From positions 1-32,829 of the forward strand of contig JAPOOU010000276.1 of the NCBI GenBank assembly GCA_026713245.1: DNA of 32,829 nt. Direction: 5' to 3'. Of this stretch, positions 5,668 to 32,139 are shown piece after piece (the first letter of the stretch is position 1; each line of letters starts with the position of its first letter). Both the position numbers and the translations under genes were made by a program. The DNA comes from Chloroflexota bacterium (GTDB taxonomy: Bacteria > Chloroflexota > Anaerolineae > Aggregatilineales > Phototrophicaceae). The notes beneath the pieces were generated by a model. It was not told the DNA's origin, made no database searches, and saw only the letters and a list, made by a program, of their open reading frames with translations.

Positions 5668-6699
5668 CTACTCCGTAATCGTCACCTTGGACAAGCCTCG
5701 CGGCTTGTCGACTTCATAGCCGCGCGCAAGCGCCTGACGCATAGCGAAAACCTGGCCGGGCATCACAGCGATAATGGGGCTGAGCCACTCCGGCGCGCCG
5801 GGTATGCGCATAGCCTGTGTCGCATCTCCCAGCAAATCGTCATCGTCGCTGATGACAAGCGTTTGCGCGCCTTTTTCTGCGACCATGTCGAAGATGTCCC
5901 GCATCGTAGCGAAGGCTTTGCCCTGCGTCGCGACCACAACCACAGGATAACCCCGCTGCACGACAGCGATGGGCCCGTGGCGGAAGTCGGCTTCGCTGTA
6001 GCCTTCGCTGGCTATATAGGTCAATTCCTTGACCTTGAGACTGATCTCGCAGGCGGTGGCGTAGTTGAAGCCGCGCCCTAGCACGGTGAGCCGATCCATA
6101 GTGCGATAACCCTTCGCCCAGTCCCCGATGCCTTCGCAAAGGTCAAGCGATTCTTTCGCCAGCCCCGGCAGCTTCTTGAGACCGGATCGCATCTCCTCAT
6201 CGACGGCCAGCGCCGTCGCCAGCATAGCAATCACGGTCAACTGCGCCGTATAGGTTTTGGTCGCGGCCACACTGAACTCTTCTTCGGCGAGCAGGGGCAG
6301 GTGATACGCCGCCGCGCCCGCTAGCGGCGAGTCTTGGTAGTTTGTAATCGCCAGCGTCAGCGCGCCCTGCGCCCGCGCGTCGTGCAAGACCGCGCGCGCA
6401 TCTTCGGCCTGGCCCGATTGCGAAATTCCGATCACCAGCGCTTTCGAGAAGTCGGGCGGTCGGCCATAAACCGTATGCAGCGACGGCGTCGCCAGCATGA
6501 CCGGCATTTGCAGTGCCGCGCCGAACAAATACTGGGCGTAAATCGCGGCATGATCCGATGTGCCGCGCGCGGCGATGCAGACAAATACCGGGTCGAACGC
6601 GCGAATTGCGGCGGCGGCGGCTGCCGTCGCCGCCTCGCCATCGTCCAGCAGGCGGCGTATGACATCGGGCTGTTGGGCGATTTCCTTCTTGAGCAGCAT
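5668..6699 (-). CDS. SIS-domain protein, GlmS isomerase-half / NagB-II-like
   Basis: A 343-residue protein with two SIS domains (about 30-160 and 195-330), equal to the isomerase half of GlmS without the glutaminase half. GlmS-like signatures include AARGTSDHA, the SQSGQAEDA phosphosugar loop, the AATKTYTAQL segment and the C-terminal KPRGLSKVTITE. Stand-alone proteins of this shape include SIS-type glucosamine-6-phosphate deaminases (NagB-II), and the neighbouring GH20 makes that role the best guess; FrlB-like deglycase or another aldose/ketose isomerase is possible. AGAGG precedes the ATG by 7 bases. It is the last gene of the minus-strand amino-sugar run, 23 bases after GH20. Confidence 0.82.
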   Translation of the reverse strand: MLLKKEIAQQPDVIRRLLDDGEAATAAAAAAIRAFDPVFVCIAARGTSDHAAIYAQYLFGAALQMPVMLATPSLHTVYGRPPDFSKALVIGISQSGQAEDARAVLHDARAQGALTLAITNYQDSPLAGAAAYHLPLLAEEEFSVAATKTYTAQLTVIAMLATALAVDEEMRSGLKKLPGLAKESLDLCEGIGDWAKGYRTMDRLTVLGRGFNYATACEISLKVKELTYIASEGYSEADFRHGPIAVVQRGYPVVVVATQGKAFATMRDIFDMVAEKGAQTLVISDDDDLLGDATQAMRIPGAPEWLSPIIAVMPGQVFAMRQALARGYEVDKPRGLSKVTITE

Positions 6700-6722: not shown

Positions 6723-8267
6723 CTAATCGTCTAGCGGCCGATAGTTAACCCCGAGTGCATCCAGGCGGGGCAGGTGTCCCTTCAAGCGCGCCAGGAAGGC
6801 GCCGTAGTCGCGCTGCTCCGGATGCTTCCACAGCACCTCTGCCAACGCGATGGCGCGCGGATAGGCCATATACTCCAGATGATCCGATGTGGGAATGTAT
6901 TCTGTCCAGAGATTGCCCTGCCCGCCCAGGATGTGCTGTTTCTTGTCGGCGGCGATTTCCTCCGGCACGACCTCAAACTCATAAACTTTGCGCAGAGGCA
7001 AGTAGCGTGGCAGGGCGGGCGGTTCACTATCGAAGTCTTCGGCCTGATAATAGTCGAGGTAGCAATAAGTGGTGGGCGTCATGACCACGTCGTGGCCGGC
7101 GTTGGCGGCTGCGATACCGCCGTCGCTGCCGCGCCAGCTCATCACCGTCGCATTTGGCGCCAAGCCTCCCTCGAGGATTTCGTCCCAGCCAACCAGGCGA
7201 CGCCCGCGTTCGCCGAGCCAGCTATCAAACTGGCGGACGAACCAGCTTTGTAGCTCATCTTCGTCTTTCAAGTCTTCAGCCTTTATACGCGCCTGGCAAG
7301 CCGGGCATCGCTTCCAGCGTTTTTTGGGCGCTTCGTCTCCGCCGACGTGGATGAACTCGCTGGGGAAAAGCTCAAGGACCTCGCCGAAGACGTCTTTCAG
7401 AAATGTGAATACATCATCGTTGCCGGCGCAATAGATGTTTTCGTCAATGCCCCAACTGGTACGAACCTGATAATCCTTCCCGACGCAGCCCAATTCCGGG
7501 TACGCGGTCAAGGCCGCGAGGCTGTGACCGGGCAATTCGATCTCGGGCACGACCGTGATGCTCCGTTCGCCGGCATAGGCCACCACCTCGCGGATTTGCT
7601 CCTGCGTATAGAAGCCGCCGTAGGGCGCCCCATCGAACTGTCGGCGGTTCCTGGGCAGGCAGGTTTCTGTCCGATAAGCACCGACTTCGGTCAGCCTGGG
7701 ATACTTCTCGATCTCGATCCGCCAGCCTTGGTCTTCCGTCAGGTGCCAGTGGAAGGTGTTGAATTTGTAGAAGGCCAACAGGTCGATGAACTTCTTGATG
7801 AATGCCAGCGGAAACATGTGTCGCCCGACATCCAGATGCAAGCCCCGCCAGCCAAAAGCCGGCGCATCGCTGATTTTTATTGCCGGGATGCGCCAGTCGA
7901 TGCCGTCAGCCCGTTCCGCGCCCAGGATCTGCGGGGGCAACAATTGGCGCAGCGTTTGGAATCCATGCATAAAGCCCGCCGGCGCAGAGGCCGACAGGAC
8001 CACTTCGTCGCTCGACGCCGCCAAGCGGTAGGCCTCGGGCGAATCCAGGTCCCGCCCCTCAACCAGGCGAATGACATTGCGGCTGTTGACCATGTCCCCG
8101 GTCGGCTCGACCGGGAGCGGGAAACCAGTCGCAGGTCGCAGATAGGTCGCCAGCATTTCGCCCAGATTCCTGTCCTGCGCGCGTATCACCGTGTCGGAAT
8201 CGAGGGTGAAGCTGCCTACGTTTCTCACGAGCGATCGCGGGCGCGGGAACAAGATGATTTCGGGCAT
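6723..8267 (-). CDS. GH20 beta-N-acetylhexosaminidase, cytoplasmic
   Basis: A 514-residue enzyme that should remove terminal beta-GlcNAc or GalNAc from oligosaccharides. A GH20b-type N-terminal domain covers about residues 1-130. The catalytic barrel follows with the entry motif WRGLHLDVGRH, the HWHLTEDQGWR block and the diagnostic HVGGDEAPK, in which D311-E312 are the substrate-assisted catalytic pair. No signal peptide is present, so it probably acts on imported disaccharides. A TTG at 8273 is in frame, but AAAGGA lies only 2 bases from it and 8 bases from the ATG at 8267, so the ATG is preferred. It lies between two SIS-domain genes in one orientation, which supports a GlcNAc/chitobiose-type catabolic operon. 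Confidence 0.92.
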   Translation of the reverse strand: MPEIILFPRPRSLVRNVGSFTLDSDTVIRAQDRNLGEMLATYLRPATGFPLPVEPTGDMVNSRNVIRLVEGRDLDSPEAYRLAASSDEVVLSASAPAGFMHGFQTLRQLLPPQILGAERADGIDWRIPAIKISDAPAFGWRGLHLDVGRHMFPLAFIKKFIDLLAFYKFNTFHWHLTEDQGWRIEIEKYPRLTEVGAYRTETCLPRNRRQFDGAPYGGFYTQEQIREVVAYAGERSITVVPEIELPGHSLAALTAYPELGCVGKDYQVRTSWGIDENIYCAGNDDVFTFLKDVFGEVLELFPSEFIHVGGDEAPKKRWKRCPACQARIKAEDLKDEDELQSWFVRQFDSWLGERGRRLVGWDEILEGGLAPNATVMSWRGSDGGIAAANAGHDVVMTPTTYCYLDYYQAEDFDSEPPALPRYLPLRKVYEFEVVPEEIAADKKQHILGGQGNLWTEYIPTSDHLEYMAYPRAIALAEVLWKHPEQRDYGAFLARLKGHLPRLDALGVNYRPLDD

Positions 8268-8305
8268 GTTCAAGATCCTTTTTGATTTCGCTTTTCATGC
8301 GCTCG

Positions 8306-9346
8306 TTATAGGTCCTCGAGCGAGATGACGGCGCTCAGGTTATGCGGACGGTCGGGATTCTGGCCATTATGCAGGGCGCGATGATAGGCCAGGAGTTGCA
8401 AGACCGGCAAATGCAGGACCGGCGCATTCCAGACTGGAAGGTCCGCTGGCAGGGCGATATGACGCGGCGAGTCAGTCGCAAGCGATGCGACGCTCAGGGT
8501 CCCCGCGCCCATCCGGCGCATTTCCCGCAGCACTTGCAATTCCTGCCGAGCCGATAGCGCCGATATCAAGCCCACAACCAGCGCATTTTCAGCGGCCATC
8601 GACATCGGGCCGTGGCGGAACTCCAGCGTGTGAAACGCCTCGCTGTAGGACAGGGACATCTCTTTCATCTTAAGCATGCTTTCGCAGGCGATGCCGTACA
8701 ACGCATCCGAACCGAGAAAGAAAAAGCGTTCGATGCCCTGGTCGCCGCCCAGCGTCTCCGCCAGATCGCCAAAGGAATCCAGCAACTGCCGACATTGCGC
8801 CGGCAATCGGGCGCTCGAAGCCCGCTCACGTCCGGCGAGGACAGCAGCCATCTGTTGAAGCACAACGCACATGCTGCTGAAGGATCGCGTCTGCGCGACG
8901 CTCTTTTCGCCGGCGCTGTCGATCGCGAAAGCCAGATCGGCCTCGAGCGCCAGCGGGCTGCCGCTATCACAGGTGACTGTGATGACAGGAGCGCCGATCC
9001 GGGATTTGAAGGCGGCCGCCGCGCGCAGGGTTTCCGTGGTCGCGCCGGAGCGCGAGACTGTAATCAGCGCGTATTTTCGCCCCTTGAGATAGATCGTCTC
9101 GGGGAAAAGCAGCAGTTCCGAGGCCGGGTGCGCCCGCGCGTCGATACCGGCGCCGCGCAGCAGGCGCGCGGCGGTCAACGAGAGATAATACGTGGAGCCG
9201 CAGCCGGTGACGACAACGCGATCGGGCTCGGCAGCGGCGATCAAATCGGAAAACCGCGACTCCTGCGCCTCAAAGACCGCGAGCGCGTCAGCCCATACCT
9301 CCGGCTGGCTATTGATCTCCTGGCGTGTATGTTGTCCTGCGTTCAT
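8306..9346 (-). CDS. SIS-domain sugar isomerase/deaminase (AgaS/GlmS-like)
   Basis: A 346-residue protein with two SIS domains. The first has TGCGSTYY and the phosphosugar-binding loop SRSGATTET; a KSVAQTRSFSSM segment replaces the AATKTYTAQ block of its neighbour. The second contains FRHGPMSM and ends in RPHNLSAVISLEDL. It is a distant paralogue of the product at 5668-6699. AgaS-type aldose-ketose isomerase/deaminase and GlmS-half proteins are both compatible. Its ATG overlaps the helicase stop codon as ATGA (9346-9343), so translation may be coupled to the upstream helicase gene. A weak AAAGAG lies just upstream. Confidence 0.8.
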   Translation of the reverse strand: MNAGQHTRQEINSQPEVWADALAVFEAQESRFSDLIAAAEPDRVVVTGCGSTYYLSLTAARLLRGAGIDARAHPASELLLFPETIYLKGRKYALITVSRSGATTETLRAAAAFKSRIGAPVITVTCDSGSPLALEADLAFAIDSAGEKSVAQTRSFSSMCVVLQQMAAVLAGRERASSARLPAQCRQLLDSFGDLAETLGGDQGIERFFFLGSDALYGIACESMLKMKEMSLSYSEAFHTLEFRHGPMSMAAENALVVGLISALSARQELQVLREMRRMGAGTLSVASLATDSPRHIALPADLPVWNAPVLHLPVLQLLAYHRALHNGQNPDRPHNLSAVISLEDL

Positions 9347-11538
9347 AGTCTCTTTATGCTTTCGAGCGCGCCGGGAATATCTGTGCAGTCCAGCGCATAA
9401 GCCTCGTCTAGCAGATCTTTCGGCACAAAGTCGGCGTACCTATCGCACTGGCAAGGCACTGGCGCAGGCAGTTCCGCGGCGGCTGGCGGCTCGGCGCGGA
9501 TCGCTTCCAGCTTCGATTTTACCTCGGCGGCACCCGTCGCGTCACATTCGAGTTCGTAATAGTATGGAAGGTGAGTATTTGTACATTTGACGCCGGCATG
9601 TTCAAGCAAGCGCAACTGGGTTCTGGCTTGCCGTGTCCCGCAGAAGGGCAGGATCAGGAAAGAATTCGGCGTGAGCGGCAGGATGGATGTCTCGGCGAGC
9701 TCGGCGCTTTTGGCTGTGTCGCGGGCCCGCTGCAGGCGTGCTACAGCGCCGGGCTTGAGATAAGGATAGCTATTTTCAGACAGGAGAATCTGGCGGATTT
9801 TTCGCAGAACGCTAGTATGAATTGGTGGTCCGTCCCCTCTCCACAGTGTCGCAGGTCTGCCTTTTATCCGCTTCACTTCAATGATGCGGGCACCCTCGTC
9901 TACTTTGAGCACCTGCCAGGCGTAACCCGCCAGGACGATCGAGCTGTCGACTTCCGGCGCCCCTTGAATCGTGCCGATCTCGCGCGATTTGTCGCGTACG
10001 CGGTATTCCACTTCGTCGCAGAAGACGGCGTAGAAGCGATAATTGTTGATGATTCGCTCGGCTTCGACGCCGATAATCAATCCGCCTCGCTCTGTTTGTT
10101 CAAGATGTTCAATCTCCAGCAGATGGCGCAGCATCCTGCGAAAATGATCTTGTGTAATATGCCGGAAAGCGGACAAGGTGAGGACGCGCTCGGCGATCTG
10201 TGGCGGAGACAACTCGCTGTGAGATTTGATGATGCTCATTGTCTGGTGATAGAGCAGGCTCAAGGGCATTTGCGGGATTTGCGGCGGCTCTATCCATTTT
10301 TCTTCGGCGTATAACTGAATGACGGCGATAGTTTGCAGCAGATTCCAGGGCAACTCTTTGCCGATGTGCAGCGCTTCCTCTTCTTGCTCTGTCGAATAAA
10401 AGAACATTCGAGAAGGTCCGCCGCGCCGCCCGGAACGCCCCAGCCGCTGCACGAAACTCGAGACGGAATGCGTCGAATTAACCTGTATCACTTGATCCAA
10501 CTGTCCCAGATCAATACCGAGTTCCAGCGTAACGGTGGCGGCTGTACAGGCATATTGACGCTCGTCTTTCATGGCCGCTTCGGCGGCTTCGCGATAGGGC
10601 GCCGAGATGCTGCCGTGGTGTACGTGATAGAAGTTGGGATCTTTGCGCCGTGCGGCAATGCGCCTCATATTCATAATGATGGCTTCGGTAGCGGCTCTGC
10701 TGTTGGCGAAGATCAGCGTTTTGGGAACGCGCCGGGTCATTTTGTACTGATGCTCGAGGTATGCGGCTTCTTGGGAGCGAGCTTCTTTGGTCGCCTCTAG
10801 CGGTTGCGCGTCTTCGACCGCGCCGCGCCGAGAACTCGGCAGCAGAAAGTACTCCAAACCAATTTCCACCGGGGAAGTCTTTTCGCTGGTGATCGATTGC
10901 ACCGGAATTTCGGTATCGCCGCGTAGCCAATCTATTGCCAGTTGCGGTTCTCCGATGGTCGCTGAAAGCCCGATTCGGCGCGCGGGCGCAGCCTGCAGGC
11001 GCGACAAGCGCTCCAACTGGCACATCACTTGCCGTCCCCGATCCGAATCAATGAAGGCATGAACTTCGTCGATGATGATGTAACGCGTATCGTGGAAGAG
11101 TCGCTTTAGCTCATGGTGTCGGTTAATCAACATGGCTTCCAGCGATTCGGGAGTAATTTGCAGGATGCCCCGCGCCCGTTGCAGAAAGCGCGCTTTTTTC
11201 GTTTGCGCGACATCACCATGCCAGCTTTGCACCGGGATGTCGCTTGCTTCCAGCAACTCGGTAAGGCGCTCGAACTGGTCGTTGATGAGCGCCTTCAAAG
11301 GACCGATGTAGACCGCTCCAATCGCCTGGGGCGGATTATCGTATAGATCGGTAATGACAGGCAGCAGCGCGGCTTCGGTCTTGCCGCTGGCGGTGCCGCT
11401 GGAAATCAGCATGTGATCTGAGGAATCGAGAATAGCGTGAATGGCTTGCGTCTGAATGTCGCGCAGGTTTTCCCACTTGTTGCGCCAAATATACTCCTGA
11501 ATGAAGGGCGCAAGTTTGTAAAATGGATTGCCGGTCAT
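9343..11538 (-). CDS. Lhr/BrxHI-like SF2 DEAD/DEAH-box helicase
   Basis: A 731-residue ATP-dependent helicase. Visible motifs are a Q-like element (LRDIQTQAI, about 26-34), Walker A SGTASGKT (47-54), motif II DEVH (157-160), motif III SAT (192-194), motif V near LELGIDLG (338-345) and motif VI QRLGRSGRRGG (364-374). The remaining 350 residues form an Lhr-type C-terminal region. The length and helicase core resemble the Lhr-like helicases (BrxHI) paired with BrxD in type 2 BREX loci. Here it follows a BrxD-like ATPase whose stop shares one base with this start (TAATG at 11540-11536). It should act on nucleic acid with its two upstream partners. The 3' end overlaps the start of a sugar-isomerase gene by 4 bases. 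Confidence 0.87.
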   Translation of the reverse strand: MTGNPFYKLAPFIQEYIWRNKWENLRDIQTQAIHAILDSSDHMLISSGTASGKTEAALLPVITDLYDNPPQAIGAVYIGPLKALINDQFERLTELLEASDIPVQSWHGDVAQTKKARFLQRARGILQITPESLEAMLINRHHELKRLFHDTRYIIIDEVHAFIDSDRGRQVMCQLERLSRLQAAPARRIGLSATIGEPQLAIDWLRGDTEIPVQSITSEKTSPVEIGLEYFLLPSSRRGAVEDAQPLEATKEARSQEAAYLEHQYKMTRRVPKTLIFANSRAATEAIIMNMRRIAARRKDPNFYHVHHGSISAPYREAAEAAMKDERQYACTAATVTLELGIDLGQLDQVIQVNSTHSVSSFVQRLGRSGRRGGPSRMFFYSTEQEEEALHIGKELPWNLLQTIAVIQLYAEEKWIEPPQIPQMPLSLLYHQTMSIIKSHSELSPPQIAERVLTLSAFRHITQDHFRRMLRHLLEIEHLEQTERGGLIIGVEAERIINNYRFYAVFCDEVEYRVRDKSREIGTIQGAPEVDSSIVLAGYAWQVLKVDEGARIIEVKRIKGRPATLWRGDGPPIHTSVLRKIRQILLSENSYPYLKPGAVARLQRARDTAKSAELAETSILPLTPNSFLILPFCGTRQARTQLRLLEHAGVKCTNTHLPYYYELECDATGAAEVKSKLEAIRAEPPAAAELPAPVPCQCDRYADFVPKDLLDEAYALDCTDIPGALESIKRL

Positions 11539-12857
11539 TAGATTTGGAAACTGGCGTAGGGGGAGTCTTCTGCCTCCAGATGGGATGCGTCGCTGGTGGT
11601 GAATTCGACATCGCCCAGAATGGAATCGAAGGTCTGGTCGGGGTACTGCTGCAAGAGGTTCAACAGCGATACAAAATCACGGACCACCTCGCGCGGGGTT
11701 AGCAGAGAATCCGCGCCAACGCGCGCCGAAACTGTCGACATAAACGCCTTGAGTTGCAAGTCATCCAAGCTGGATTCGTATTTGTGATGAAAGGCATGGA
11801 TCTCACGGATATGCTGCAGCAGCGAGTGTATTTCATCCTGGCTGAGCATATCGAGGTGAATGAGCGGCGCGTTCAGATCTCGCAAGCCGTCGCGGACGAA
11901 GCGACTCTGTTCCAGGCGCGTTTTCAGGGCATCGTAGCTAAACAGACCGCGGCGCGTATCCTGGACCATATCAGGTGTAGCGCCAAAAAACACGCCCAAA
12001 TACTCGGCGCCGCCTTGTCGTGTATCGTTGAAGATGCTCAGAAGACGCTCGTAGTTGTTCCTGCGAGAAACTGCATGGGATATGCGATGGAGGTTTACGG
12101 CTTCATCGACAAAGATGATCAGCCCGCTGTATCCAATCTCGTGCACAAAACTGGCCATCAGCTTGATATAGTCGTACCACGACTCGTCATCAATAATGCT
12201 GCGCACGCCTAGTGCCTGTCTTGCTTCAGTCTTAACATTGTATTCGCCGCGCAGCCAGCGAATGGCCGCGGCTTTGAGGTCATCATCGCCGATTTGGTGC
12301 CCGTGCCAATAGTCATGAATCACCTTTGCGAAATCGGCACCATGCACCATGTCTTCCATAGCGTCCACGACATCGTAAATGCCTTGTTCGACCGCGCCGG
12401 AAAAACGACGCGAATTGCGATCGATACCGGCGCGTACGAACTGTGTCTGCACCTTGCTGATCCATTTTTCCAAGACAGTTGCAAACGCTTTGCCGTCGGG
12501 CCGTGTTTTGATCGCCATGTTCATCATTAATTCGCGATAAGTAGCCAATCCTTCGCCCTTGGAGCCAGTCAAGCGCCTTTGAGGACTGAGATCGGCATCG
12601 GCGACGACGAAATTTCTCTGGAAAGCATAATTGCGCAATAACTGCAGCATAAAGCTTTTGCCGGAGCCGTAGCGCCCGACAAGCAGTCGACAAGTGGCGC
12701 CGCCATCGGCGATGACATCGTCCATATCGCGCAGGAGCGTTTCGATTTCCGCCTTGCGTCCAACGACAATATGCTCGGCGCCTCTTCTTGGCACAACGCC
12801 AGCGCTAAGCGACTGCAATATGGCAGCTGAAACGCGTTTCGAAATTCTCTTCTCCAT
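11538..12857 (-). CDS. BrxD-like P-loop ATPase (BREX ATP-binding, DUF2791 type)
   Basis: A 439-residue ATPase. Walker A is GRYGSGKS (61-68) and Walker B is LIIFVDEA (246-253). The segments around it (SIIDDESWYDYIKL, NYERLLSIFNDTRQGG, FGATPDMVQDTRRGLFSY) match the conserved core of the BrxC/BrxD ATP-binding family as I know it. In BREX this family works next to a helicase. No other BREX core gene (PglX, PglZ) is present, so it belongs to a different, smaller cassette. GAAGG lies about 6 bases before the ATG. The gene begins 9 bases after the TerB-domain gene and runs into the helicase start, so all three are almost certainly one transcript. Confidence 0.85.
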   Translation of the reverse strand: MEKRISKRVSAAILQSLSAGVVPRRGAEHIVVGRKAEIETLLRDMDDVIADGGATCRLLVGRYGSGKSFMLQLLRNYAFQRNFVVADADLSPQRRLTGSKGEGLATYRELMMNMAIKTRPDGKAFATVLEKWISKVQTQFVRAGIDRNSRRFSGAVEQGIYDVVDAMEDMVHGADFAKVIHDYWHGHQIGDDDLKAAAIRWLRGEYNVKTEARQALGVRSIIDDESWYDYIKLMASFVHEIGYSGLIIFVDEAVNLHRISHAVSRRNNYERLLSIFNDTRQGGAEYLGVFFGATPDMVQDTRRGLFSYDALKTRLEQSRFVRDGLRDLNAPLIHLDMLSQDEIHSLLQHIREIHAFHHKYESSLDDLQLKAFMSTVSARVGADSLLTPREVVRDFVSLLNLLQQYPDQTFDSILGDVEFTTSDASHLEAEDSPYASFQI

Positions 12858-12866
12858 AGGATGCCT

Positions 12867-15800
12867 TCACTGATTTTGATTGAACTTGCCATACTGCGAA
12901 TGTTTGAGTATGGATTCAATCTTGCATCGATAATCCCTTTCAATGAAAAACAAGTCATTTTCTTCAATGATTAAGGATTCGCCGATTTCTTCGTAGGCGC
13001 GCTCATTGATAGTCTCTATAATCGGGTTGATGAATTGACCGCGGAAAGCGGATTGTATGTCCTCTTCCGCGCATTCCCAATCATTATTCGACAGAAAGGC
13101 AATCAATCTGGCTGTCTCGCTTCCGCTTGCGCCCATTATTCTAGCGACTTCATCTAGGCTGGGCAACGAACCAGACTTCCTACCTTCCATATCTTGGAGA
13201 AATCCAGGCGATGCTGGCCCACCATCCTGACTGCCGCTGATTTGCGCTGTATCGCCAAGAAGCAGTGACCGAAGCGTTACCGATCCGCTTTTGTCTCGCT
13301 TACCTTCCAGGGAATTCCGCTGCGCTTCGTTTAGCGCATTGTCGTCTTTGAATTCTTGCGAATTGTCGTCAATCTGTCCGACGAGTAGACGATCGCGAAT
13401 CGCCGTCGAATCTATTTTGAGCTGCTCAACTTTAGCGGGGTCAATGATGATTTCCGGCCTCGGCGGTTCGAGTTTTAATGCCGTCTCGATAATTGACTGC
13501 CATTTTGGTGACAACCGAATGCCGCGCAATTGATGACCAAAATGATATTGCTGGCGCATCACATTTTCGGTGTGCCGCAGGATATCACGCAGCAAATTAG
13601 CGATCCGCGCGTTGTCTGTCCAGGGATGTACAATCGCAATCTCAATCTCGGTCTGCGGATACTCATGCAATGCGTTAATGAATGGGATCCTTTTTATGAC
13701 CCGGCTTTGTTTGGATTTGTAGGTCTGAAACAACGATTGTCCACGTTCTTTCTCTATAGCGGCATTAAAAGCCATCACTCCCTTTTTATAGGCGCTGCGC
13801 GCTTTGACGGTTTCGCCATGTTGTTTGTAGAATTTGTTCTCGGTCGGGTTGTACTTTGCCAGATGAAAAAGCACATCGTCGGATAGGGCTTCAAAGTTCT
13901 CACCTTCATTGACCCAGCCTTCGATCAGCATATTGAGATCGCCAACCGCCCCTAGTTTCGCCACTTTGGCATACCATTGCAGGGGATCGGGGAGCAATTT
14001 ATGAACAACAATGAAGTCCGCATTCCAATCCGGCAAATACTTATCCAGCTTAGGTTGCAACTTACGGTAATATCGCCAGAAATCCTCAAGATGCTTATAA
14101 GCCGCTTGTGGCGAATCAAAACCGATCAGATTAATAACTTCATAAACATGGACAAACAGGTAGCTTAGATCGGTCGGCAGTTGATTGCCTTGCCTCAGTT
14201 CTGTCCGCCAATAGAAATACCATTGCTGTTGCGCTTCACTCATTGCGGAATATGTAGGCCAGTATTGCATGAACGGAACTTCTTCGGCTGCTGTTTCGAT
14301 GCGATTAACATATTTTCTGGCTTCGTCAATGAAACCCCGGCTTGCCGAAGATGATTGCAGTACCGATAGGCGCGGCGGAATCGAGATATCACCGGGGTCT
14401 TCTACCGGCAGTTCAGTGATTATCGGGTGGAATGGCTCTGTATCTGATTGAGTAGCGGGCTGTATCGCTTCATCAAGCTGCGGCTGCTGCAATTGCTCGT
14501 CATACCATGCTTTGCCAGCTGGGGTTACGCGGAATTTATATGTCTGAAACTTATTGCGTTCCAATTTGCCGTCTTGGGTCAGGCGATTGATCGCCGCTTT
14601 CGGGAGGCCAGCGCCGATGTAATCGACATATTCCCTTTCCGCTTCGATAATTACCGACATGACTTCAAACAACAATGCCGTTTCAGGGTCGGGGCGACGT
14701 GGCGGGATGGGGGTACCGGCAGGTTCGTCGGCGGGCGTTTCGGCACGAATCTGGTGGAACCAGGCCGGCTTGGCCGGAGGCCCTGCTGCGCTGTCACGCG
14801 ACGTGGAATCCTCGGCCGCTGTCGTTATAGCAGGCAGCACGTCGCCCGTTTCTTCGCTTGGCTTGGCGCGGAGTTCAAAAGTATCGTCCTTTTGCGCGTG
14901 GATTGCGGCACTCAACACAGCGCTTCGCTCTTGTTCCTCCCTCAGGTCGCGGATAAGCTCGGCAATGCGATCCCGCTTGTCCGAAAGCTCGTTCTCAAGC
15001 TCAGCGTTGCGTTGCTTCTGCTCTTGAATCTCGTCGTCAAGTTCGCCGATTCGTATATTGAGCGCCTGCAGCATGTCCGCGTCAGAGACTGCTGGCCCTT
15101 GAGCGTCATCACGTTCCTCTCCCGAGCTTGATGATACCGACAGCAACAAATCGGGCTTGCTTGAAACACGAGCGTTCAAGCCTTTGAGACAAGCGACCGG
15201 CTCGACCTGCTGCAAATTTAGATCGAGAAAATGCTCCCGCTGCACATCTAGAGCAATCAGGCAAAATCGACCTGGTTGCCCTGTGCCTGGGTTTATCGCA
15301 TCCACATATCCTTCAAAGACAATATGCTCGATTTTTTCTGTTCGATCCGCCGTAAAAATCTCATAGATGGTACGCAGGCTGGTCTGCGCCAACACCGACG
15401 CGTAAAACTGCCTGCGCTGTTTTTGCGGCAGGACGATCTCGGTGATCTCGTCACGAGACTTCGCATATTTGTACGCTTCTGTTTCCGGAATGATATCCAT
15501 TGCGGGCAAGTCATAAGATATTTTCAGCAATCGAGATTCGGGAAAATAAGCGAGCTCGGCTTTTTTGGAGAAACCCGGCGGGTACTCGCTATTTTTCAGC
15601 ACTAGTTTGAAGTACCTGACGACTGCCCCGGCCTCTCCCGCAACAAAATCTTGCAGAAATTGCTCAATATCTTGATTGTGTTTTTCCGCCTCCGCGCGGA
15701 TTTGACTGACACGTTTCTTATTATTGAACGAAGCTTCCCGATAGACTACAAGGGCTTTCTGATAATTTCTCTCCGCGCTCGCACAGGCTTTTTCGTATGA

Positions 15801-16118
15801 CCGATTCTTCCATGGCAGCCAGGACGCAAGACCAGAAGGGGGCGCCGGCAATTGTAGAATCGGTTCCTTTCGCTTGAATTCGGGAAGGCGCGCTTGAATT
15901 TTCAAGCCGTCAAATATGATACAAGTATCAACTAAAAGGGACTCTTTCAGCAGATTTTCTAATCGAGATCTCGATTGATCCAAGATCGCGTTTTTGCTGT
16001 CGACCTCGGAGAAGCGAGCGGTCCAATGATCGCGCAATTGCTGCTTTTCCGATTGCATCTCCGCTAGCAACCGTTTCAATTCGGCCTGCTCTTTCTTCGC
16101 TCGCGTATTAAAGAACAT
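12867..16118 (-). CDS. Large TerB-N / TerB-C domain protein with REase-associated N-terminal region
   Basis: A 1083-residue cytoplasmic protein, first gene of the three-gene cassette. Residues 1-60 are a charged helix. About 65-330 form a domain (DLPAMDIIPETEAYKY, LRTIYEIFTADR, VFEGYVDAINPGTG, ACLKGLNARVS) that I recognise from actinobacterial proteins carrying an Mrr-type restriction endonuclease. About 345-410 is a coiled coil, and 480-545 looks winged-helix-like. About 590-800 is TerB-N, with WPTYSAMSEAQQQWYFYWR and LPTDLSYLFVHVYEVINLIG. About 1000-1070 is TerB-C, with FINPIIETINERAYEEIGE and IERDYRCKI. No nuclease residues are evident. TerB-N/TerB-C proteins are known partners of helicases and P-loop ATPases in Ter-related predicted DNA-processing systems. 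The gene appears more AT-rich than its neighbours, which hints at transfer. Confidence 0.85.
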   Translation of the reverse strand: MFFNTRAKKEQAELKRLLAEMQSEKQQLRDHWTARFSEVDSKNAILDQSRSRLENLLKESLLVDTCIIFDGLKIQARLPEFKRKEPILQLPAPPSGLASWLPWKNRSYEKACASAERNYQKALVVYREASFNNKKRVSQIRAEAEKHNQDIEQFLQDFVAGEAGAVVRYFKLVLKNSEYPPGFSKKAELAYFPESRLLKISYDLPAMDIIPETEAYKYAKSRDEITEIVLPQKQRRQFYASVLAQTSLRTIYEIFTADRTEKIEHIVFEGYVDAINPGTGQPGRFCLIALDVQREHFLDLNLQQVEPVACLKGLNARVSSKPDLLLSVSSSSGEERDDAQGPAVSDADMLQALNIRIGELDDEIQEQKQRNAELENELSDKRDRIAELIRDLREEQERSAVLSAAIHAQKDDTFELRAKPSEETGDVLPAITTAAEDSTSRDSAAGPPAKPAWFHQIRAETPADEPAGTPIPPRRPDPETALLFEVMSVIIEAEREYVDYIGAGLPKAAINRLTQDGKLERNKFQTYKFRVTPAGKAWYDEQLQQPQLDEAIQPATQSDTEPFHPIITELPVEDPGDISIPPRLSVLQSSSASRGFIDEARKYVNRIETAAEEVPFMQYWPTYSAMSEAQQQWYFYWRTELRQGNQLPTDLSYLFVHVYEVINLIGFDSPQAAYKHLEDFWRYYRKLQPKLDKYLPDWNADFIVVHKLLPDPLQWYAKVAKLGAVGDLNMLIEGWVNEGENFEALSDDVLFHLAKYNPTENKFYKQHGETVKARSAYKKGVMAFNAAIEKERGQSLFQTYKSKQSRVIKRIPFINALHEYPQTEIEIAIVHPWTDNARIANLLRDILRHTENVMRQQYHFGHQLRGIRLSPKWQSIIETALKLEPPRPEIIIDPAKVEQLKIDSTAIRDRLLVGQIDDNSQEFKDDNALNEAQRNSLEGKRDKSGSVTLRSLLLGDTAQISGSQDGGPASPGFLQDMEGRKSGSLPSLDEVARIMGASGSETARLIAFLSNNDWECAEEDIQSAFRGQFINPIIETINERAYEEIGESLIIEENDLFFIERDYRCKIESILKHSQYGKFNQNQ

Positions 16119-16177
16119 CGTGATCCCGTACTTGTCCTGCCTGTTATCCCATTCAAACTGATGACCGCCGCGCTGCG

Positions 16178-16183
16178 ATTATA
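16178..16183 (-). promoter_or_regulatory. Candidate -10 element upstream of the TerB-domain gene
   Basis: A perfect TATAAT on the minus strand lies 59 bases upstream of the TerB-domain start. No good -35 hexamer is found 16-18 bases further upstream. It is the only clear -10-like box in this 246-base intergenic region. Confidence 0.3.
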
Positions 16184-16282
16184 CGCTGTTCAAAACGCAT
16201 GGGCGACTGAAACATTTAGAATCATATTACATCTGTGGCAAAATGCGAGACCCCAGGTATGACTTATAGCTAAGTTAAGAAC

Positions 16283-16305
16283 AGCCGTTCTGCGCGTAAA
16301 CGGCT
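16283..16305 (-). terminator. Weak hairpin downstream of the dehydrogenase gene
   Basis: AGCCGTT (16283-16289) and AACGGCT (16299-16305) form a 7-bp stem with a 9-base loop, 60 bases past the dehydrogenase stop. On the minus strand it is followed by GTTCTTAA, a poor T tract. It may be an inefficient terminator separating the dehydrogenase from the TerB cassette. Confidence 0.3.
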
Positions 16306-16364
16306 TCATCGTCAGCAAGCAAGTGTAGCGATGGAATCATTGGGCGCTTCCAGTGTGGCCGGGT

Positions 16365-17384
16365 CTAATACATCAACTCCACGTCGAGCAAGTTTTCCAT
16401 TGGCTCCTCAGCGAGATAGTGGCGCAGGTTGCGGATGAACAATTCAGTCAATTTGCCGTTTTCGGTATCCGCCGTGCTGGCGGAATGATGGCTGATGATA
16501 ACGTTGGGCAATCCCCAAAGCGGGTCGTCGGCCGGCAGCGGCTCTGGATCGGTGACATCCAGCGCCGCGCCCCCAAGCTGCCCGTTAATAAGCGCGTCCG
16601 TCAAGGCCGTCTGGTCGACCAGGGCGCCACGCGCGATATTGATCAGATAGGCGCCCGGCTTCAGCATGGCGATACGTTCAGCGTCCAGCAAGCCATCCGT
16701 TTCCGGCGTATGCGGCAGGCACAGCGCCAGAAAATCGGCTTGCGGCAGCATCTCCTCCAGTTGAGAAGGGGCGAACAAGAGGTCGACGTCGTCTACTGCC
16801 CGATGGATATCGCGCCGCGTGCCGATTATGCGCATACCGAAAAACCTGCAGACAGCCGCGAGGTCGCGCCCGATCTTGCCCAAGCCGAGGATGCCAACGG
16901 TCATGCCGCGCAGTTCGGTATTATTGAAGCGTTGCCAATGGCGCGCGAGCTTCTGATCCTCCATCAAACAATAGTTCTTGACGAAGGTCAACATTGCCAT
17001 CAGGCAGAACTCGGCCAGGGGACGGGCGTGGACGCCGCTGGCGGTGGTGAAAATCCAGCCCTGCCGGTCGTAACCATAGCTCTTCACAAACTGTCCGATG
17101 CCGGCGCTGGTCGTTTGGATCCACTTCAGGTTATGCGCGAGCTGCGGCAGATCCTCGCGATGTGTATGGTCGAAGTCGAAGAGGACGTCGGCTTGTGACA
17201 GCAGCGCGCGCCACTCAGCTTCTTGTTCGGCACTACGCTTGATGATGGCGGTGTGATGGGCGTGAAACTGCGGCGCGCCGATCAGGTCGGGTCGGTAGAC
17301 GACCTCAACCTGCGGCACATTGTTCCGGATGTGATCAATGTGTTCTGGTTCCAGGTAAGACGCGATCAAAACCTTGAGAGGCAT
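16365..17384 (-). CDS. D-2-hydroxyacid dehydrogenase (NAD-dependent)
   Basis: A 339-residue oxidoreductase of the D-isomer 2-hydroxyacid dehydrogenase family. A substrate-binding domain is split by a Rossmann domain with the dinucleotide loop GLGKIG (166-171 region). The catalytic triad is read as R252 in NIARGALVD, E281 in TDPEPL and H300 in ISHHSAS; the last has His in place of the usual Pro before the catalytic His. The family reduces 2-oxoacids to D-2-hydroxyacids, with glyoxylate/hydroxypyruvate reductase-like and phosphoglycerate dehydrogenase-like members; the substrate here is unknown. It stands alone between the TerB cassette and the split regulator. A LarA-like gene lies 12 kb away, but no operon link is visible. 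Confidence 0.87.
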   Translation of the reverse strand: MPLKVLIASYLEPEHIDHIRNNVPQVEVVYRPDLIGAPQFHAHHTAIIKRSAEQEAEWRALLSQADVLFDFDHTHREDLPQLAHNLKWIQTTSAGIGQFVKSYGYDRQGWIFTTASGVHARPLAEFCLMAMLTFVKNYCLMEDQKLARHWQRFNNTELRGMTVGILGLGKIGRDLAAVCRFFGMRIIGTRRDIHRAVDDVDLLFAPSQLEEMLPQADFLALCLPHTPETDGLLDAERIAMLKPGAYLINIARGALVDQTALTDALINGQLGGAALDVTDPEPLPADDPLWGLPNVIISHHSASTADTENGKLTELFIRNLRHYLAEEPMENLLDVELMY

Positions 17385-30641: not shown

Positions 30642-31268
30642 CTATTTTGTCACTTCGTGTTCTTTCAAATATGCGATCGCGTTGAGCAGATAACTTTCAC
30701 CGTTCTTGAATCTGCCGAGACCCGTGTTGCAACTGTCGCAAAGATGGCCTCTCCAGCGGCCTGCGTAGTGATCGTGGTCAGCGACAACCTTCACGTTTAC
30801 CCCTACTATTCCCATCTTGCGACAGATAGGACATCTCCATAGCGTCCCCTTTTTTGGTCGAAGACGCTTTGCTTCCTTTTTTTCGCGACTGGGAATGGAG
30901 CGACGATCAATATCTTGGCGGCAAATATTACAGGATGGGCGACGTGTTTTCCTTCCTTTTGCATCGGTCTGATTGATTTGAAACTCATTCTCAGACTTCC
31001 TCACAAAACATATGTTACAGATCATATGCTCATAGCCTTTGCCAGTTGCATAAACATCAACGTCTGACGTGTCATGGCGATCAACTATGAACATCTGATC
31101 TTGGCCGGGCAAGAAAACACGTACCTCCTCGCCCATTTCTTCTAAAACTACTCCAATTGAATTGTCAAGAAAGTGGCTGCGGATCTCGTCGCGTACACCA
31201 TGCGGACAGGCATAACCCAATCCTCTGGTACAAAGAATCCACTTTGATTGTCCAATTGGGTTAAGCAT
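30642..31268 (-). CDS. Endonuclease VII-like HNH nuclease, candidate restriction enzyme
   Basis: A 208-residue protein. The C-terminal 65 residues carry an endonuclease VII-type beta-beta-alpha-metal fold: C146-x2-C149, DHDH (164-167), then RGHLCDSCNTGLGRFK with C177, C180 and N181, and a final helix. A second zinc site is likely from C84-x2-C87 with C113-x2-C116. The N-terminal 80 residues are unrecognised and could provide target recognition. Type II enzymes of this nuclease class are known (Hpy99I resembles T4 endonuclease VII). Its ATG overlaps the methyltransferase stop by 8 bases, and both genes look AT-rich against the rest of the window. A phage-type resolvase role is the alternative. 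Confidence 0.78.
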   Translation of the reverse strand: MLNPIGQSKWILCTRGLGYACPHGVRDEIRSHFLDNSIGVVLEEMGEEVRVFLPGQDQMFIVDRHDTSDVDVYATGKGYEHMICNICFVRKSENEFQINQTDAKGRKTRRPSCNICRQDIDRRSIPSREKKEAKRLRPKKGTLWRCPICRKMGIVGVNVKVVADHDHYAGRWRGHLCDSCNTGLGRFKNGESYLLNAIAYLKEHEVTK

Positions 31269-32139
31269 TCAGAACTTCCACGGAGAGACCCGATTGGATT
31301 AGTCGTTGACGGGCAATCTCGATATACTCGGGAGATATGTCAATTCCTACGAACTCCCGATCTCCCAAAAGTGCCATTTTTCCTGTTGTGCCAGAACCGC
31401 ACATGGGGTCAAAAACAAGATCGCCCGGGTTGCTCCACGATTCGATGTGGTCATTGGCTAGTTTCTCAGGGAAAACTGCCGGGTGTTGGAAAGCGATCCT
31501 ATCACTCGTGGTTCCACCTAGCCCGACCGCATACGACCAAATATTGGTACGGGTCTTTTCCTTTTTGAGCTCGCCAAGCTTTTTCTTGTTGATCCCGTCC
31601 GGCAACTTGTTATGCGTGAGCATCTCGTAGCCGTGGCGCTGGGTCGGCACTTTAAGCGCATTGAATCTGGTGGGCTTGCCTTTAGACAAGACAAACATCA
31701 TTTCGTAGGCGTTGGTATAGGCATTGCTGCGAGTGAAAGGCGTATTTTTCTTTTGATAGATCATGACGTCGTGTGCCGAGAAACCGATTTCCTGAAAATA
31801 TATGGCTTGACGAAACGATGTCAGACTTCGCCCACCGTTGATACGATCTCCTACCACCCAAACGACCACGCCGCCGTTAGCCGTAACTCGATAAAGCTCT
31901 TGAGCGATTTCTTCAAAGGGGAATTCATATCCCTTATAGTCTCGAAGACTATCATACGGAGGAGACGTTACTGTAAGTTGGATCGAATCATCTTTCCAGC
32001 TTCTCATCACGTCAATGCAATTGCCCACGATTAGCCTACCCTTTCGGCAATCGTAACTTAAGCCGTTTGACTTCGTAGCGGAGGCTATGTCTTCTAAGAC
32101 GTCAACAGTCTTCTCAGTTAGTTTAATAGATGTACCCAT
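31261..32139 (-). CDS. TSPPY-type DNA methyltransferase (N4-cytosine/N6-adenine)
   Basis: A 292-residue beta-class amino-methyltransferase. The catalytic motif IV is TSPPY (58-62) and the SAM-binding motif I lies C-terminal as FDPMCGSGTTG (243-253), followed by FVGIDISPEYIEIARQRL. That order defines the beta group. TSPPY is typical of N4-methylcytosine enzymes, though N6-adenine members exist. A target-recognition region lies between, roughly 130-220. GGAAGGGG 6 bases before the ATG is a strong ribosome binding site. The 8-base overlap with the downstream nuclease makes a restriction-modification pair likely. Confidence 0.9.
   Translation of the reverse strand: MGTSIKLTEKTVDVLEDIASATKSNGLSYDCRKGRLIVGNCIDVMRSWKDDSIQLTVTSPPYDSLRDYKGYEFPFEEIAQELYRVTANGGVVVWVVGDRINGGRSLTSFRQAIYFQEIGFSAHDVMIYQKKNTPFTRSNAYTNAYEMMFVLSKGKPTRFNALKVPTQRHGYEMLTHNKLPDGINKKKLGELKKEKTRTNIWSYAVGLGGTTSDRIAFQHPAVFPEKLANDHIESWSNPGDLVFDPMCGSGTTGKMALLGDREFVGIDISPEYIEIARQRLIQSGLSVEVLNA

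Follow-up and report, generated by a model that had tools for sequence, protein, structure and literature searches.

The window analysed here, a contig of 32,829 nucleotides (JAPOOU010000276.1, positions 1 to 32,829) from a Chloroflexota bacterium of the Phototrophicaceae (GCA_026713245.1; 4.87 Mb, 300 contigs, ~95% complete), carries on its minus strand three genes which, judged by profile matches, are a copy of the known anti-phage system Shango (SngA-SngB-SngC). The first third of its SngA is the non-nuclease N-terminal half of Mrr-type (type IV) restriction enzymes, with the nuclease absent. We consider it probable that SngA is the exchangeable recognition subunit of this Shango, its N-terminal module (N-module) engaging phage DNA and SngB and SngC acting. 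Shango itself is ordinary; unusual here are the type IV N-module on SngA, the natural SngA swaps and the tight joining of the cassette to a metabolic operon.

The three genes are adjacent and co-oriented: sngA (12867..16118) encodes a composite TerB protein of 1083 amino acids (aa), sngB (11538..12857) a P-loop ATPase of the BrxC/BrxD family (439 aa) and sngC (9343..11538) an Lhr/BrxHI-like superfamily 2 (SF2) helicase (731 aa). A gap of 9 bases separates sngA from sngB, and sngB overlaps sngC by 1 base. SngB and SngC matched their PADLOC profiles over the full length (596 and 780 bits respectively), while the SngA profile matched residues 521-1071 (225 bits, profile positions 63-527 of 528). 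These were the top PADLOC models for the trio, well over BrxD (168 bits) and BrxHI (434 bits). Pfam recognised TerB_N (PF13208, 115 bits) and TerB_C (PF15615, 28 bits, cut-off 26.3) in SngA, BrxC_BrxD (522 bits) in SngB, and DEAD (109 bits) and Helicase_C (49 bits) in SngC. SngB has intact Walker A (GSGK) and Walker B (DE) motifs and SngC intact GKT, DExH, SAT and QRLGRSGRR motifs; for each protein they are invariant over 10 aligned Shango sequences. The trio as observed is far beyond chance. The original prediction, made from the letters of the window, had described the three minus-strand genes with these coordinates and spacings, the intact Walker and helicase motifs and the TerB_N/TerB_C signatures, and the open reading frames (ORFs), Pfam and the 10-protein alignments agree with it. 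Its idea of a self-contained defence-type cassette also stands; the trio is not an undescribed one, however, since all three proteins match Shango profiles. According to its published description (PMC10250203), Shango is an anti-phage system of Pseudomonas aeruginosa PA14 made of a TerB-like protein, an ATPase and a DEAD/DEAH helicase, which cut plating 10-100-fold for many of the tested phages, though not for all. The anti-phage activity of the locus in the window is presumed by analogy with PA14.

The prediction had also placed the trio outside bacteriophage exclusion (BREX) systems, without PglX, PglZ or TerD, and this was borne out. Pfam scans of 25 window ORFs gave no PglZ and no TerD family, and the one DNA methylase detected (31261-32139) is an N6_N4_Mtase. 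None of 34 genomes of the genus had a PglZ match (the same search matched 2 of 14 control genomes), and the single BrxC/BrxD-family gene of the source assembly is sngB. SngB reached 165.8 bits against the NCBIfam BrxD model (cut-off 350) and is not a BrxD equivalog. Membership of BREX was rejected on the missing PglZ matches in the genus and on the SngB score; the trio occurs without BREX rather than always as part of it. In PMC12278908, SngC, BrxHI, DruE and DpdJ are described as a potentially distinct SF2 clade.

The original prediction took the first protein for a TerB-N/TerB-C protein and nothing more, which does not hold: its N-terminal part is a domain of its own (residues 1-335, 15114..16118, minus strand) that matches type IV restriction enzymes. 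SngA residues 49-323 matched the PADLOC mREase_IV profile (133 bits, profile 81-375 of 544), a range that excludes the nuclease part, and Pfam found no Mrr_cat in SngA, whereas this domain is present in three related enzymes (L128, L129 and L133). Across 301 genomes of the phylum, 10 other proteins matched mREase_IV through position 508 or beyond (L134 with five in-frame stops and L132 with one), and the three of them run through Pfam all showed Mrr_cat behind the common region. In the reverse direction, a profile built from eight SngA N-modules recovered Mrr enzymes almost over its full length (e.g. 8-333), with E values as low as 1e-96; the alignment ended at the start of the Mrr nuclease. 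Identity between SngA 1-335 and five Chloroflexota Mrr-type enzymes was 30-40%. The source assembly holds a second mREase_IV match (G000:C184:51930-52295), which consists of the nuclease part alone (positions 408-526).

Outside the genus, the N-module is almost always joined to Mrr. Its relatives in viral contigs had the Mrr catalytic end in 14/14 cases (three of the 14 are near-copies), and so did all seven matches in the rest of the order (L200-L203, L205 and L206 by motif, L207 by its tail) and 3/5 matches (L217-L219) among 110 genomes from a different class of the phylum. A restriction endonuclease was annotated under the match in 16 of the 18 plasmid records with an N-module relative. None of 50,697 phage records matched the N-module. 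A genus member without Shango (G021) has a short stand-alone N-module piece (L204) without the Mrr motif.

The AlphaFold2 model of the N-module (mean predicted local distance difference test score, pLDDT, 92.0) shows a predicted coiled-coil hairpin, with two long helices (2-54 and 102-159), and an alpha/beta domain. These helices would suit a reading that we consider rather unlikely, in which the locus is an ordinary Shango, the N-module is merely a coiled coil for oligomerisation or scaffolding, and SngB/SngC are the sensor. It also gains from four genus genomes (L029-L032) whose SngA has neither the module nor a TerB_N match, so that the N-module is dispensable for having a Shango. Conservation, however, lies mainly outside the coiled coil: 16 of the 19 invariant columns among 15 sequences are within the alpha/beta domain (residues 174-314). 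Moreover, Mrr enzymes retain the module in full, and their non-nuclease half would be expected to select DNA. The ratio of nonsynonymous to synonymous substitution rates (dN/dS) of the N-module was 0.30 (dN 0.147, dS 0.495) for one pair, the window and the genus locus L026; the same pair gave 0.14 in sngC and 0.12-0.18 in three host genes. The module evolves fast yet is constrained by purifying selection. No convincing relative of the N-module was found among solved structures.

The N-module also occurs with a third partner. The other two of the five proteins matched in the second class of the phylum consist of the N-module alone, with 423 aa (L168 of genome G187, also L216) and 491 aa (L169 of G114, also L215). 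In both cases the following gene, which is co-oriented and overlaps the N-module gene, codes for a protein with DUF4041 and a T5orf172/GIY-YIG-type nuclease domain (gene pairs at L168:3470-6249 and L169:4795-7696), an arrangement that makes a possible two-gene defence system. DUF4041 plus a GIY-YIG nuclease is the architecture given for SNIPE in PMC13190303; a hydrophobic N-terminus is absent from these two partners. Since the partners are 71% identical and the genomes belong to one family, both pairs were counted as one lineage. The name mREase_IV had suggested that the N-module might itself be DUF4041. This candidate was dropped: PF13250 did not match the module, and hhalign detected no homology between the module and the DUF4041/GIY-YIG partner (probability 0.5%). 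SngA gave no DUF4041 or GIY-YIG match at E<=10. PF13250 matched nothing in the source assembly and nothing in the control genomes either, though the model does match at L168 and L169.

Fusion of the N-module to SngA was found in 8/12 Shango loci of the genus, the seven besides the window each with E below 1e-80, and in none of 23 SngA proteins from outside it (eight-sequence profile, E<=1; nine of the 23 are from Chloroflexota, L164 is cut by a contig end and L096 has masked bases). Four layouts of SngA occur in the genus. The window protein combines the N-module with a central module (residues ~455-545, 14484..14756), TerB_N (591-722, 13953..14348) and TerB_C (884-1067, 12918..13469), all on the minus strand; L023-L025 have the N-module, TerB_N and TerB_C; L026-L028 and L033 have the N-module and TerB_C without a TerB_N match, TerB_C in L026 (no Pfam call) and L033 (below cut-off) being assigned by phmmer with the window's domain; and L029-L032 are short (387-469 aa), with TerB_C and no N-module. 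The central module is common to the TerB_N-less SngA of the genus (phmmer in L027-L032, E 1e-10 to 1e-22). It has a winged-helix look by eye alone, its predicted fold being of low confidence; winged-helix domains are assigned a 6-methyladenine reading role in type IV enzymes in PMC11037411, and such a reader was kept as a lead only, as the fold is unconfirmed. The model of residues 440-1083 (mean pLDDT 64.2) was not used for conclusions. Beyond these layouts, SngA N-termini fall into classes mutually without detectable similarity: the Mrr N-terminal half, a region of 500-800 aa (L022, L069, L073, L166 and L174) and, by hydropathy only, a strongly hydrophobic and probably membrane-located N-terminus (L175, L176; two proteobacterial plasmid copies).

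These sequence comparisons indicate that pieces of sngA were swapped between Shango lineages of the genus, and probably pieces of sngB too. Between the window and L026, DNA identity was 83% across sngB-sngC-SIS1 (SIS1 being the gene that follows sngC) and 84% across the greater part of the N-module and the 2-hydroxyacid dehydrogenase gene upstream, whereas window positions 12840-14840, the C-terminal half of sngA, had no DNA match in L026 at E 1e-5. With the TerB_N of L023-L025, which belong to a different Shango lineage in the genus, the window domain shares 62-64% identity. For the same pair, sngB showed a dS of 1.31, compared to 0.35-0.51 in five other stretches. Finally, the five loci situated as in the window, ahead of an aminosugar operon, formed one clade in the sngC tree (Shimodaira-Hasegawa-like approximate likelihood ratio test, SH-aLRT, 97), while the sngB tree placed two of them nearer the short-SngA lineage (supports 90 and 92, below the mark of 95). 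The natural swaps suggest that SngA is the variable subunit of Shango, with SngB and SngC staying.

In the mechanism that we favour, the N-module would engage a modified base or a DNA structure in incoming or replicating phage DNA, and TerB_N/TerB_C would dock SngA to SngB. SngA would in this way recruit SngB/SngC to the invading DNA, where the SngB ATPase might load or drive the SngC SF2 helicase, which would disrupt phage DNA metabolism instead of cutting. The main reason for assigning recognition to the N-module is that it accompanies three different defence effectors, which argues for recognition rather than catalysis. It is fused in Mrr, encoded by a separate overlapping gene with the SNIPE-like nuclease, and fused in SngA. 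More tentatively, the 335-residue module may be a portable phage-DNA recognition unit serving Mrr nucleases, SNIPE-like GIY-YIG nucleases and the Shango machine; SngA would then be a specificity subunit, comparable to HsdS, the specificity subunit of type I restriction, and a swap of its front part would retarget the system. In the literature we found no account of phage recognition by Shango or of its mechanism, nor of an Mrr-SngA fusion. Should SngA be a recognition subunit built of modules, to which the natural swaps point, one could test directly what each part does. The shared N-module also gives access to the non-nuclease half in a group of Mrr-type enzymes, for which the search for a structural relative brought up nothing convincing.

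A second feature beyond the original prediction is that sngC overlaps the next gene, the first of a SIS-GH20-SIS operon. This operon comprises SIS1 (8306..9346, 346 aa, Pfam SIS, aminosugar isomerase/deaminase-like), a GH20 beta-N-acetylhexosaminidase (6723..8273, Pfam GH20, 409 bits) and SIS2 (5668..6699, 343 aa, Pfam SIS), all on the minus strand. SIS1 is a host gene and not part of Shango, and GH20 is a core host gene (33/34 genus genomes). On the other side, a leader (16119..16364, minus strand) lies between the stop of the dehydrogenase gene and the sngA start; it is the presumed promoter region, and it had no match to empty sites and no sigma-70 consensus. The site is empty in L108, L109 and L110, close relatives that lack Shango: their homology to the window stops at 9345, in the SIS1 start codon, and begins again at 16367, where the dehydrogenase gene ends, so that in the window the cassette replaces the leader of the SIS1-GH20-SIS2 operon. 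On the far side, the window and L026 have the dehydrogenase gene, and L027, L028 and L033 have other genes; because this side varies, the sngC-SIS1 junction is the constant part. No target-site duplication is evident, as the longest stretch common to both cassette ends has 9 bases and shuffles reach 11.

The 4-base ATGA overlap of sngC and SIS1 (9343-9346) recurs in 5/5 loci of this type, and the window has genes for sugar-type ABC transporters nearby. Both would fit a reading in which the six genes are one unit and Shango is tied to the catabolism of aminosugars (cell-wall or chitin fragments), being switched on by sugar from lysed neighbours. So would the single sngC clade of the five loci, given that the host tree needs 3 changes. 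We regard this as improbable: Shango stands ahead of SIS1 in 5 of the 20 sites where SIS1 was readable (25 loci were examined), leaving 15 SIS1 genes without it, 7/12 Shango loci of the genus lie elsewhere, without aminosugar genes, as do the named plasmid Shango loci viewed, and a shared insertion site accounts for the same data. The five Shango-bearing sites occur at several places in the GH20 tree (built from 31 of the 33 genomes), with at least 2 of the 3 changes forced and the clustering no stronger than in 148/500 shuffles. SIS1 follows the host, with identities to the window of 88% in G009, 61% in G019 and 89% in G021, which has no Shango. A long-standing resident lost repeatedly and recurrent exchange by recombination would both fit these data; a single gain would need many losses.

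Long residence is also what a housekeeping module for DNA repair or replication restart, resident in the genus and not devoted to defence, would predict. The sngC and SIS1 identities track each other at the five loci (87/88, 68-70/61-64 and 70-76/74-79%), and the aminosugar site is not a defence island. The vertically inherited housekeeping operon considered in the original prediction thus received a mixed answer: sngC closely tracks host genes at the site, but presence is patchy. Shango (SngB, E<=1e-60) was found in 12/34 genus genomes, 3/120 other genomes of the order and 5/300 other genomes of the phylum. In addition, SngB relatives were present in 697 of 72,556 plasmid records (449 of the 697 from Klebsiella and 144 from Salmonella), and 542 of the 697 are conjugative. 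With the recombination in sngA and sngB and the published anti-phage activity of Shango (PMC10250203), the housekeeping reading becomes very improbable. SngB had no match in 50,697 phage records, and the SngC pattern none in viral contigs, in a single-protein scan that finds close relatives only.

The other PADLOC-type genes seen in the window were only a restriction enzyme/methylase pair, 14.5 kb away. This pair (30642-32139) consists of overlapping genes for a His-Me finger (endonuclease VII-like) protein, with a PADLOC REase_II score of 177 bits, and for an N4/N6 DNA methyltransferase, which scored 261 bits as an orphan methyltransferase; relatives of the methyltransferase (79-86%) occur in three other genus loci (L110, L112 and L120). 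Among the neighbours of the genus Shango sites (75 proteins, 5 of them from the window), the 25 of 55 matching families listed were mostly DNA methyltransferases and restriction enzymes, and included HmaB and MADS-type proteins. A type IIG enzyme stands beside L029; eight other neighbour proteins, from genus or order loci, gave no match. Next to a Shango locus of the same family (L211:377-4424) are genes for an RNA-repair ligase of the PNKP type and, facing sngC, for a separate TerB_N/TerB_C protein of 465 aa. Two tandem sngC-like helicase genes follow sngB in Candidatus Hodarchaeum (L071:9317-13752) and in a metagenome-assembled genome of the Eubacteriales (L072:9311-13877). SngB relatives (~45-47% identity) of Clostridia and a cyanobacterium (L075-L077, L086, L087, L094, L100, L102 and others) had no sngC match in the available DNA, some contigs being short, and may represent another system sharing the ATPase.

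Among known systems the closest is Shango of P. aeruginosa PA14 and E. coli: the window trio has the three gene families and the gene order of annotated Shango-like plasmid operons, and the TerB protein, ATPase and DEAD/DEAH helicase given for Shango in PMC10250203. It differs in its 1083-aa SngA, where the Mrr-type N-module replaces other N-terminal regions, and in the position of the operon ahead of an aminosugar operon. Mrr-type type IV enzymes share SngA 1-335 as their N-terminal half, but the window SngA has TerB domains where they have Mrr_cat. SNIPE is approached in two other Chloroflexota genomes, where the N-module has a gene to itself that overlaps one for DUF4041/T5orf172; in contrast, the module is not detectably homologous to that partner, and the window SngA is without DUF4041 or GIY-YIG. 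The likeness to BREX lies in SngB, which belongs to Pfam BrxC_BrxD, and in SngC, whose closest model outside Shango is BrxHI; the difference is that SngB falls under the BrxD cut-off in a genus without detected PglZ.
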